Assembly (NCBI GenBank): GCA_913056145.1
Contig: CAJXMI010000004.1
Location: 1-54,780 of the forward strand
Source of the DNA: an uncultured Spiribacter sp.
GTDB lineage: Bacteria > Pseudomonadota > Gammaproteobacteria > Nitrococcales > Nitrococcaceae
Length of the DNA: 54,780 nucleotides
Reading direction: 5' to 3'
The notes beneath the pieces were generated by a model, which did no database searches, was not told the DNA's origin, and saw only the letters and a program-made list of their open reading frames with translations. Numbering within the stretch: the first letter of the stretch is position 1; each line of letters begins with the position of its first letter. A program made the translations under genes and the position numbers. Shown piece after piece: positions 25,524 through 35,286 of this stretch.

Positions 25524-26477
25524 TTAGTTGAGCAGCTGGCTGAGTGCCCGCTGACCCCGCACCAGCTCGCGGGAGTCATCCTGCGTCCACGCGGTCATGG
25601 AGCCATCGTAGAGAGACACGTCGGCCAGGCCAGCCACCTCGGAGAGGGCAAACCAGCTGGTCGCGGCCCAGTGGCCGGTGTTGCAGAACGAGACCACGGG
25701 GCCGTCGCCATCAATCCCGGCCGTGCGGATCAGGTCATTGATTTCGTCGCGATCCAGAAAGTACGCCGTGCCTTCGGTGACCAGCAGCTGCTGCTCAAGG
25801 CTCGCAGCCCCCGGAATGGTCCCCGCGCGGCGAGCGGCCGGATGCTTGGCCTCACCCGCGTACTGCGCGGCCGGACGCGCGTCGACCAGCTGATGGCCTT
25901 GGGCACGGGCCTGTTCCACAGCGGCCGTATCGGCCAGCAACTCGGGGCGGACATCGGCGGTGAAGCCGCCAGCCTCAGGCGCTGGACGGCCGCTGGCCAC
26001 CTCCCCGCCCGACTCGACCCAGGCACGGTAGCCGCCGTTCAGAATGGCCACATCGTCGTGTCCCAGATACTTGAATGTCCAGTAGACCCGAGCCGCGCTG
26101 CCAAAGTCGGTGGACCCAACGCCGGCCGGCACAACCACGACGCTGTCGTCATTATCGATCCCGAGGCCGCCGATGAGCGTCTCCAGTCGATCGACGGACG
26201 GCAGCACACCAGGCACCGCGCCGTCGGTCACGCGCCAACCGGCGCCGGTGTAGCTTGCATAGACCGCACCGGGGATATGCCCGGCCGCAAAGCCCTCGGC
26301 ATCGGTGCCATCAATGGCGGAGCGCACATCCAGCACCACCAGATCCTGATTATCGAGATGACCGGCCAGCCAGTCGCTGTCCACCAGCGGCGTCACGGCA
26401 GGGCCTGCGAACGCAGTGCCAAAGGCCAGCACCCCGGACAGTGCCGTCACTGAGAGAAAGGGAATCCTGAACGCCAT
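25524..26477 (-). CDS. Periplasmic two-domain rhodanese / sulfurtransferase
   Basis: Signal peptide MAFRIPFLSVTALSGVLAFGTAFA; VLDVRSAIDG, catalytic loop SFCNTGHWAATSWFAL. Confidence 0.9.
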   Translation of the reverse strand: MAFRIPFLSVTALSGVLAFGTAFAGPAVTPLVDSDWLAGHLDNQDLVVLDVRSAIDGTDAEGFAAGHIPGAVYASYTGAGWRVTDGAVPGVLPSVDRLETLIGGLGIDNDDSVVVVPAGVGSTDFGSAARVYWTFKYLGHDDVAILNGGYRAWVESGGEVASGRPAPEAGGFTADVRPELLADTAAVEQARAQGHQLVDARPAAQYAGEAKHPAARRAGTIPGAASLEQQLLVTEGTAYFLDRDEINDLIRTAGIDGDGPVVSFCNTGHWAATSWFALSEVAGLADVSLYDGSMTAWTQDDSRELVRGQRALSQLLN

Positions 26478-26529
26478 GCGAAGTCTCCGCTGAATCGAAT
26501 GAGACCGACGAGCCTACCGGAGTGCTTAG

Positions 26530-26561
26530 ATATTGGAAGAACGGATTTACTCTAACAATAT
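26530..26561. promoter_or_regulatory. Inverted repeat, candidate operator
   Basis: ATATTGGAAG (26530-26539) N12 CTAACAATAT (26552-26561); matching ATATTG..AG / CT..CAATAT arms, 53-84 bp upstream of rhodanese ATG. Confidence 0.45.
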
Positions 26562-26579
26562 GCCCGTTGGTTATATCGA

Positions 26580-26723
26580 TTGATGCCAGAGTGTCACAAG
26601 CGGTCATCCAGCCTGGCTCTTCCCGCCATCGGCCGTTCTTCCTATCATTTACCCCATCGCAGGGCAGCGTCCCTGCCACCGACTCTCCTCCTCTTGGCCG
26701 GCCCTAGTGTCGGCTTTTTTTTT
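26580..26723 (+). ncRNA. Candidate trans-acting small RNA (5' end uncertain)
   Basis: Non-coding gap; hairpin GCAGGG-CAGCGT-CCCTGC (26659-26676), exposed TCTCCTCCTC, then terminator hairpin + T9; no upstream + strand gene for >2.5 kb. Confidence 0.45.
26697..26723 (+). terminator. Rho-independent terminator on + strand (orphan)
   Basis: GCCGGC (26697-26702) loop CCTAGT, GTCGGC (26709-26714), then nine T. Confidence 0.7.
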
Positions 26724-27615
26724 ATTCGAACCAGGCCTGCAGACGGGGCAGGAAGCGCGCCAGCTCGCCGGTCATGATGGCAAAGTCGGCGTCGAACCGC
26801 TCCGCAGCGCTTTCCGCTTCGCGATCATCCGCGTCCGACTGAACCAGGTCGGAAAAGCGCAGGCGCTTGACCGACAAATCCGCATCGAGCATGGCATTGA
26901 TACGACCGTCCCAATCAATCGCCAGCCGCCGAATGCGCTTGCCGGCCCGGATATGGGCACGGATTTCGTCGCTGCGCAGATCCTGACGCTTGCAACGCAC
27001 CTCGGCGCCCTCGCTGCGCGGGTCTTCAAAGACCGCTTCTTCGCCGGGTTCCAGATCACTCGGAAAGCGATCCCGCGCCAGCCACTCCGTCATCACCTGT
27101 GCGGGCGAGCTATCGGTCTGAAACGGGCGCACCGGCAGGCTGCCCAGCATGGCGCGCAAATCGTCGGTCAGGAGCTCGGCCTCGCGCCAGGTGGCGGCAT
27201 CCACCACCAGCCAGCGGCCCTCGGGGTCGATATAGGCATAGGCCCGCCGGCTTTTGGTGAAGGCGCGCGGCAACAAATCCAGGGTGACCTCTTCCTTGAG
27301 CCGGGCCTTTTCGCGCCGCCCCATAGGCCGGCCCATGGCGTCCTCGCGCTCACTGATCCGCTGCTCCACCTGCTCGCGCACCACGGCAGGCGGCAGCACG
27401 CGCGACTCGGTCTGCAGGCAGATCATCAGGCACTGGCTGGCGGCATGCACCAGCTGCTCACTATCACCCCCCAGCGGAGGCACCCAGCCACGCGACTCGG
27501 GATCATGCCCGCCAACGGGATGAAACACACCGGGCTGCAGGCGCTCCTCGAGCTGCTCGGCATCAATGGAGAACGCGTCAGCCAGCTGGTAGACGCAGAG
27601 ATTGCGAAACCACAT
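26722..27615 (-). CDS. rdgC: Recombination-associated protein RdgC
   Basis: MWFRNLCVYQLADAF; FVPPLGGDSEQLVHA-like (WVPPLGGDSEQLVHAASQCLMICLQTESRVLPPAVVREQV); EKARLKEEVTLDLLPRAF. Confidence 0.95.
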   Translation of the reverse strand: MWFRNLCVYQLADAFSIDAEQLEERLQPGVFHPVGGHDPESRGWVPPLGGDSEQLVHAASQCLMICLQTESRVLPPAVVREQVEQRISEREDAMGRPMGRREKARLKEEVTLDLLPRAFTKSRRAYAYIDPEGRWLVVDAATWREAELLTDDLRAMLGSLPVRPFQTDSSPAQVMTEWLARDRFPSDLEPGEEAVFEDPRSEGAEVRCKRQDLRSDEIRAHIRAGKRIRRLAIDWDGRINAMLDADLSVKRLRFSDLVQSDADDREAESAAERFDADFAIMTGELARFLPRLQAWFE

Positions 27616-28780: not shown

Positions 28781-29268
28781 GGCAGCTCGTCCTCGATCAC
28801 CTTGCGCGCCTGCGCATCCCGAAACGCCTGCAGGGCCTCGACGAGGGCCGGATCATCCGCCGCCAGCAGCGATACGGCAAACAACGCGGCATTGCGCGCC
28901 CCGGCCTCGCCGATCGCAAATGTCGCAACCGGGACGCCGCCCGGCATCTGAACGATCGACAGCAGCGAGTCGAGCCCCTTCAGCGCCTTGCTCTGCACGG
29001 GCACGCCCAGCACCGGAACGGTGGTCTGCGCGGCCACCATGCCAGGCAGGTGGGCCGCGCCCCCGGCACCGGCAATGATGGCCCGCAGCCCGCGCTCGCG
29101 CGCCGTTGCGGCATAGTCGTTCATGCGCTCAGGCGTGCGATGCGCCGAGACAATGCGACATTCATGCGGCACACCGAAATCCTTCAGGACCGTATCGGCA
29201 TGCGCCATCGTCTCCCAATCGGAGCGGCTGCCCATAATGATGCCAACGCGGGGCGCCGCATCAACCAT
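28777..29268 (-). CDS. purE: 5-(carboxyamino)imidazole ribonucleotide mutase
   Basis: [52 protein letters not shown]. Confidence 0.96.
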
Positions 29269-31060
29269 CCGATTTCTCCAGCACATAACTCCCCGGTGCG
29301 GGCTCGATCGACTTCAGCTTGCCCTCGCCGGGCTTGCGCGCCGGGACCTCACCACCCCGCTTGGGCTCGAGCCACTTCACCCAGTCGAGCCACCATGAGC
29401 CCTCGTGCTGCGTGGCTGCCTCCAGCCAGGCCTCGGGGTCTTTCGGCCGCCGGCTGTTGAGCCAGTAGCCGTACTTCTGCTTCTCGGGCGGGTTGATCAC
29501 ACCGGCAATATGCCCGGATCCGCCCAGCACAAAGCGCGTCTTGCCGCCCAACAGCTTGGCGCTGCTGTAACAGGCATGCCACGGGGCAATGTGATCCTCG
29601 CGAGCCGATATGAAGTAGGCCGGCACCTTGACCTTGCCAAGATCGACCGGCACACCATCGAGCGTAATGCCGCCGGGCTCGCGCAAGCGGTTCTCGAGGT
29701 ACATGTTGCGCAGGTAATACGCATGCATGCGCGCCGGCATGTTGGTCGAGTCCTGGTTCCAGTAGAGCAGATCAAACGGGAACGGATCCTCGCCCTTCAG
29801 GTAGTTGTTCACAAAGAACGACCAGATCAGATCGTTCGAGCGCAGGCTCGACATCGTGGTGGCCATCTGATTGCCCGCCAGATAACCGCGTTCGTTCATC
29901 TGCTTTTCAAGGGCGTTCAGCTGCTCGTCATCGATAAACACCTCGAGCTCGCCCGGGCTCTCGAAATCGAGCAGCGTGGTCAGGAAGGTCGCGCTGTTGA
30001 CGCCCCCCTCACCACGATCGGCCATATACGCCAGGGTTGACGCGAGCAGCGTGCCGCCCAGGCAGTAGCCAATGATGTTGACATCACGCTCGCCAATGGC
30101 CTGCTCAACGGCATCCAGTGCCGCCAGCGGACCCTCTTTCATGTAGTCCTCGAACTGCTTTTCCGCCAGCTCGGCATCGGGGTTGCCCCACGAAATCACG
30201 AAGACCGTGAAGCCCTGCTCGACCAGCCACTTGATCAGCGAGTTCTTGGGGCGCAGGTCAAGGATGTAGTACTTGTTGATCCAGGGCGGGACAAACAGCA
30301 GGGGGCGCCGGGCAACCTGCTCGGTGGCCGGCGTATACTGTATTAACTGCATGAGTTCGTTTTGATAGATGACCTCGCCCGGGGTGACCGCCAGGTCCTC
30401 GCCTACCTGGAAGGCGTCCGGGTGCGTCTGACGGATCTTGAGGGTGCCATTGCCCCGCTCCAGATCCTCCAGCAGCTTGTTCAGGCCATCCAGCAGGTTC
30501 TGGCCACGGCTCTCGACCGTGCGCTCAAGCACCTCGGGGTTGGTGGCCAGGAAATTGGAGGGCGACAGCGCACTCACAAACTGACGGGTGTAGAAGTCGA
30601 TCTTTCGCCGCGTGCGATCATCGAGCCCGTCGACGTTATCAACCGTGTGATGCAGATAGTCGGCCGTGAGCAGGTAGGACTGCTTTACAAAGTCAAAGAA
30701 CGGGTTGTCCTCCCAACCCTCATGGGCAAAGCGCTTGTCACGGCGATCCGGCTCGCGCACGGGCTCGCTCTCGACACCCATCATGCGCAGTGTCGAGTTC
30801 TGCATGAGTGACATGTAGTCCTGCCAGAAGGCCATCTGCGCCTGGACGAGCTGAACAGGATCGGCCATCAGCCGGGCGTAGAGATCCTGAAAGAGCTTGC
30901 TCATGTGCAGGGCGTCGTCCATCGACACATTCTGGCCGGCCTCCTGACGCGCCAGGAAATCCTTGACGAGCTGCTGACTGCGACCAGCGATCTCGGAGAG
31001 AGAGCGACTGAGCTCGTTGGGATCGATGGTGTCGAGTCCGCTATCCTTTTGTTCGGTCAT
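29261..31060 (-). CDS. phaC: Class I poly(R)-hydroxyalkanoic acid synthase
   Basis: Lipase-like box [64 protein letters not shown]. Confidence 0.96.

Positions 31061-34141: not shown

Positions 34142-35286
<1,145 letters not shown>

Follow-up and report, generated by a model that had tools for sequence, protein, structure and literature searches.

The window, a stretch of 54,780 nt, belongs to a draft genome of 1.87 Mb from the Spiribacter group, relatives of which include Spiribacter salilacus. A gap at positions 26478-26721 separates two minus-strand genes: a rhodanese/3-mercaptopyruvate sulfurtransferase-like gene (25524-26477; best model below its curated cut-off), which is the divergent upstream neighbor of the element described here, and rdgC (26722-27615; NCBIfam NF001464 RdgC, 355 bits), which is convergent with that element, lies outside the RNA, and serves as a synteny marker only. 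The original prediction had described this gap as free of any convincing open reading frame and as encoding, on the plus strand, an unannotated small RNA (sRNA) with an anti-Shine-Dalgarno (anti-SD) segment and an intrinsic terminator of its own. The gap is as described, with every letter in its place; no short open reading frame is common to the copies of the element, which also rules out a small-protein reading; and a terminator scanner calls a terminator on the plus strand of the gap and none on the minus strand. The predicted transcript, type A, is about 69 nt long (26655-26723, plus strand), its 5′ end being placed from a -10 element and its 3′ end from the terminator. It comprises a 5′ hairpin, GCAGGG-CAGCGT-CCCTGC (26659-26676); the CU stretch CTCTCCTCCTCTTGG (26683-26697), which belongs to a 17-nt anti-SD seed, CUCUCCUCCUCUUGGCC (26683-26699); and the terminator GGCCGGC-CCTAGT-GTCGGCT + T9 (26696-26723; stem 26696-26715, T9 26715-26723), the T-run of which extends 2 nt into the rdgC stop codon. 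RNA folding of 26655-26723 yields two hairpins and leaves the CU part of the seed unpaired, as had been supposed; the single-sequence fold is within the range of shuffled sequences (z -1.3, 20 of 200 shuffles equally good). A class I PHA synthase gene (29261-31060, minus strand; TIGR01838, 805 bits) is located 2.5 kb from type A.

A 149-nt query from the window finds matches in all 13 other genomes of the genus, and its 3′ 40 nt match a second place in nearly all genus genomes; seed and terminator are present in 14/14, nearly always in two copies. Across six genomes in which the element is linked to rdgC, invariant positions make up 78% of the core and terminator, 51% of the rdgC coding DNA, and 16% of the remaining gap; 12 genomes share the 20-nt run GACTCTCCTCCTCTTGGCCG unchanged, and the 17-nt seed is invariant or nearly so across the copies of both types A and B (see below). 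Compensatory changes keep the 5′ stem in 16/16 copies of type A, where the hairpin re-forms with different sequence (for example GCAGGG/CCCTGC, TCGGGC/GCCCGA, GTAACGGC/GCCGTTAC, and CTGTAATC/GATTACAG), giving a stem score of 173, whereas 2000 shuffles average 77 (sd 12.7) and never exceed 115; the variable column pair 72/84 of the terminator also covaries (A-U/G-C/G-U). Because of the invariant 20-nt run, the 78% invariant core, and the re-forming 5′ hairpin, the window element is more than a chance arrangement. The original prediction had looked to related genomes for the hairpin and the CU-rich segment, and both are kept there; together, conservation, covariation, and paralogous copies bear out the proposed plus-strand sRNA, which is almost certainly a real, previously unlisted sRNA of Spiribacter-type bacteria. 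The R1 model, of which the window sequence is itself a part, matches type A at G000:C4:26677-26722 (62.9 bits, E 8.6e-14), and an R1 search of 369 genomes of the class found A and B only in the host family, weakly in G024, and in a number of doubtful matches.

A scan of the rhodanese-rdgC gap found no consensus sigma-70 promoter, in agreement with the original prediction, but the 5′ end, which had been left unplaced, can be set near 26655 from a conserved -10 element TATCAT (26643-26648, plus strand). In an alignment of 13 type A promoters, including one at another locus in a second genus (G017), a TAnnnT -10 lies exactly 19 nt downstream of a GGCTMTTCC box in 13/13 (the first base of the box is C in two), and GGTCATCC or a near variant precedes the box in most; the corresponding window sequences are GGTCATCC (26602-26609) and GGCTCTTCC (26615-26623). 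These boxes are probably an activator site overlapping the -35 of type A.

In most genus genomes examined, the second copy, type B, is flanked by genes for an ion channel and a phosphoesterase (L101:2838-2914 in the window's own genome). It has the same seed and terminator as type A, lacks the 5′ hairpin, and in nearly all copies uses an extended -10, TGnTATAnT. PhaR is a PHB-granule-sensing repressor known best for phasin control, and genes for PhaR and Hfq are found in every genus genome. A PhaR-type operator, TGCRNYGCAACA, is invariant at the type B promoter (16/16), and the phasin promoters of the genus carry TATATTGCRNYGCAACA with the same geometry. The type B site fits the PhaR-binding consensus TGCRNYGCASMA, derived from Bradyrhizobium footprints, except for an A at the tenth base that also occurs in several sites listed in the same study (PMC6201568). 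In the complete 1.74-Mb genome G005, the operator 12-mer occurs only 9 times: three times within coding sequence, twice at the phasin promoter, and once each at type B, type C (see below), sdhC, and coaD. By sequence, the promoters of B and C match those of a PhaR regulon, some C sites with 1-2 mismatches; the promoter of the window's type A copy has no PhaR site, and any PHB link of type A is therefore indirect. The window's sole TGCRNYGCANMA is TGCGGTGCAACA at 34669-34680, directly upstream of coaD (minus strand); coaD of G005 likewise carries TGCACTGCAACA, and coaD may belong to the PhaR regulon. G015 has two type B-like copies in tandem (L114:3119-3364), the second with a CTCTCCTCCTCCTTGG seed.

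A search for complements of the seed recovered A and B themselves and a single further intergenic place that recurs, adjoining phaR-phaB. The RNA gene located there, type C (L121; G000:C21:16028-16158, minus strand), lies on the 3′ side of phaB, is convergent with it, and has a PhaR-type operator. Type C carries an invariant GCCAAGAGGAGGAG, which complements the A/B seed perfectly over 14 nt; a promoter, TTGCGY-N17-TANNNT, in most copies, usually with the operator directly upstream; a covarying hairpin, GCACCC/GGGTGC; and a terminator, GGGAGAC/GTCTCCC + T run. It is present in 13/14 genus genomes, and the remaining one is a draft assembly that is 74% complete; near phaR of G015 no type C was found. 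We considered whether C might be the 3′ UTR of phaC and ruled this out, as another gene lies upstream in G005 and C has its own promoter. Pairing of C with the core that holds the A/B seed reaches -30.6 kcal/mol, better than all 1639 ribosome-binding site (RBS) windows of G005. Judged from sequence, C thus combines an independent transcription unit with a seed-complementary site, as a dedicated sponge would, and we lean slightly toward the view that it acts as a sponge of A and B.

The best-supported candidate target of the A/B seed is prpC, the product of which is a bifunctional 2-methylcitrate/citrate synthase (NF009006). Pairing at the prpC RBS (examples are GGCCAGAGGAGGAGAGACCT-ATG and AGCCAGGAGGAGGAGAG-ATG) ranks within the top 0.2% for 7/10 genomes, at -25.8 to -34.1 (percentiles for genomes other than G005 are read off the G005 distribution), a conserved target-RBS pairing of the kind expected for an anti-SD sRNA, and the RBSs of phaB, rdgC, and phasin, which served as controls, have ordinary pairing energies. 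The prpC RBS is weak in G003 (-18.3) despite the presence of type A, and lacks a match in G011 and G007, in neither of which a type A copy was found. Because the genomes with a mismatched prpC are those without a detected type A, there is a hint that type A regulates prpC, a weak one since one of the two assemblies (G007) is incomplete. Calls of other targets are weak, because across the full set of G005 RBS windows the true seed cannot be told from shuffled ones; we therefore dropped the genome-wide target ranking in G005 and kept only the prpC signal, which is conserved across genomes. Phasin mRNA, considered by analogy with MmgR, was rejected because its RBS is ordinary. In G008 a near-perfect 17-nt seed complement, absent from the G005 orthologue, precedes the gene for an amino-acid ABC transporter binding protein (L117:2646-2669); aapJ of that genome seemed a perfect target, and was rejected because the G005 orthologue has no match. 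The similar genome-wide energies of true and shuffled seeds, the fit of CUCCUCC to a generic SD, and the slowing of growth by RF02278 RNAs (PMC5688073) would also suit a general anti-SD growth brake like that "toxic small RNA", broad rather than selective in its action; the conserved seed reaches beyond the SD complement, however (CUUGGCC), and both prpC and type C keep that extension, and we consider such a brake unlikely.

We favor instead a selective mechanism in which A and B would be sibling trans-acting sRNAs with one common 17-nt seed; the seed would pair with purine-rich RBSs and so block translation of selected metabolic mRNAs; A would answer to a predicted activator, and B would be freed when PHB granules titrate PhaR; pairing at prpC would repress it, with Hfq; and C, itself PhaR-controlled, would sequester A and B. 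Type A has the architecture of an anti-SD sRNA (a short intergenic unit, an intrinsic terminator, and an unpaired CU-rich seed), and anti-SD translational repression by A and B is probable; taken as a whole, anti-SD siblings with prpC repression and a sponge C are quite likely to be the best explanation of the sequence evidence. The roles might be reversed, with C as the active regulator, or as no more than a target under regulation, and A and B as its antagonists, as the retention of C across the genus and the wider occurrence of related loci in the order might suggest; this strikes us as improbable, the usual direction being that of a CU-rich seed against a purine-rich RBS, prpC fitting the A/B seed, and no open reading frame consistently following the C anti-seed. 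Action mainly in cis on rdgC, by convergent antisense or transcriptional interference, would account for the overlap of the T-run with the rdgC stop codon and for the rdgC synteny of type A in many genus genomes, yet G005 and other genera have type A beside other genes, the same seed occurs elsewhere in type B, and the rdgC RBS does not pair with the seed (-4 to -10 kcal/mol), all of which makes it very improbable. That the locus is a mere terminator plus simple CU-rich sequence, perhaps a read-through terminator and no sRNA, would agree with the nonsignificant single-sequence fold and the lack of a consensus promoter, but is scarcely credible in the face of the 20-nt invariant seed, the covarying 5′ hairpin, the fixed promoter spacing, the existence of another, unlinked copy that shares the seed and has an extended -10, and the conserved complementary RNA.

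Searches of Rfam with A, B, and C at relaxed thresholds gave no score near a cut-off: for RF00519 (alphar8/MmgR), A scores 13.7 and B 12.7 bits versus a gathering threshold of 41; for RF02278 (Betaproteobacteria toxic sRNA), 13.6 and 14.2 bits versus 50; and for the SorX model, 14.5 bits versus 46.6. The likeness to alphaproteobacterial anti-SD RNAs that had been proposed for the window element therefore holds for architecture but not for family membership. The "cuckoo"-motif RNAs resemble type A in their exposed CCUCC-type motif, but no sequence relation to them was found. Sequence comparison thus points to A and B as a genuine sRNA family, new but of a known kind, accompanied by an unexpected sponge candidate linked to PHB. 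No paper on a Spiribacter sRNA was found in a literature search; a published survey of structured RNAs across 26 bacterial genomes describes a proX motif of Spiribacter, and searching its text by terms turned up no mention of the type A element.

Several known systems share parts of this design. The sibling sRNAs SisA-D and the sponge CrfA of Caulobacter, of the alphar8 family (PMC12559287), resemble A, B, and C in i) being multi-copy sRNAs with unrelated promoters; ii) combining a hairpin, a single-stranded anti-SD stretch, and a terminator; and iii) having a separate G/A-rich RNA complementary to the common seed. They differ in having the alphar8 seed UUUCCUCCCU and in belonging to another bacterial class, the RF00519 score of our RNAs being below cut-off; and the sponge candidate C, unlike CrfA, has phaR-phaB as its neighbor and an operator of the PhaR type. 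MmgR of Sinorhizobium meliloti (RF00519) is a PHB-related, PhaR-repressed sRNA with a PhaR site in its promoter (PMC12542648, PMC8401924), a feature matched, from sequence alone, by type B and not by the window copy; MmgR lowers phasins, whereas the phasin RBSs are not predicted targets here, and the sequences differ. NmsRA/NmsRB of Neisseria are sibling anti-SD sRNAs that repress prpC, prpB, gltA, sdhC, sucC, and fumC (PMC5362039); they share with A and B the sibling anti-SD design and the (here predicted) target prpC, but have three stem-loops, two anti-SD segments, and stringent-response control, and the word "sponge" is absent from that paper. The Burkholderia double-hairpin RNAs (RF02278), with three to five copies per genome (PMC5688073), are like A and B in their multiple copies, two hairpins, and CU-rich segments facing the RBS, and unlike them in that the covariance scores are far under cut-off. 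The genome layout predicts that in halophilic Gammaproteobacteria, for which there is no Rfam family of such RNAs, PhaR also runs an sRNA and the matching counter-RNA. If this is true, anti-SD siblings with a sponge (as in Caulobacter) and anti-SD siblings acting on prpC (as in Neisseria) would represent a design used repeatedly to switch carbon use. The prediction can be stated concretely, as a single seed with a single target site, a single sponge site, and a single operator.

Loci related to type C are distributed more widely in the order than in the genus alone. At the phaB-linked place of G016, G019, G026, G029, G030, G031, and G038, both strands bear signals for transcription. The phaB strand carries a promoter, TTGACA-N16/17-TAnnnT (one TTGAGC), a PhaR-like site with one mismatch, and anti-SD sequence of the CUCCUCC type together with a hairpin and a terminator; the opposite strand has the features of type C. 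In Rfam these order-wide loci gave only sub-threshold matches (anti-hemB, RF02278, MmgR), mostly on the phaB strand. The phaB strand of Spiribacter has no terminator in 11/13 loci and no convincing one in the remaining two, and because signals are found on both strands elsewhere, this suggests that an overlapping phaB-linked pair, consisting of an anti-SD sRNA and C, was an ancestral antisense pair; we infer that change ran from this pair to the dispersed genes. It is conceivable, though we offer it tentatively, that a PhaR-run switch arose in this way: an ancestral antisense pair at the 3′ end of phaB, each member with a PhaR-type operator, would have been split in Spiribacter, the seed being dispersed to A and B and C staying at phaB as a trans-acting sponge; by way of prpC, the switch would couple the use of propionyl/acetyl-CoA to the state of the PHB granules.

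In G026 the phaB-strand sRNA is present in one further copy, which stands alone; at L318:1650-2330 two copies of the phaB-strand anti-SD sRNA lie in a row, the second overlapped by an antisense unit. The distant genome G139 has PhaR-like sites in front of a CU-rich terminator RNA (L308, near 1400-1570), which may be a distant analogue.
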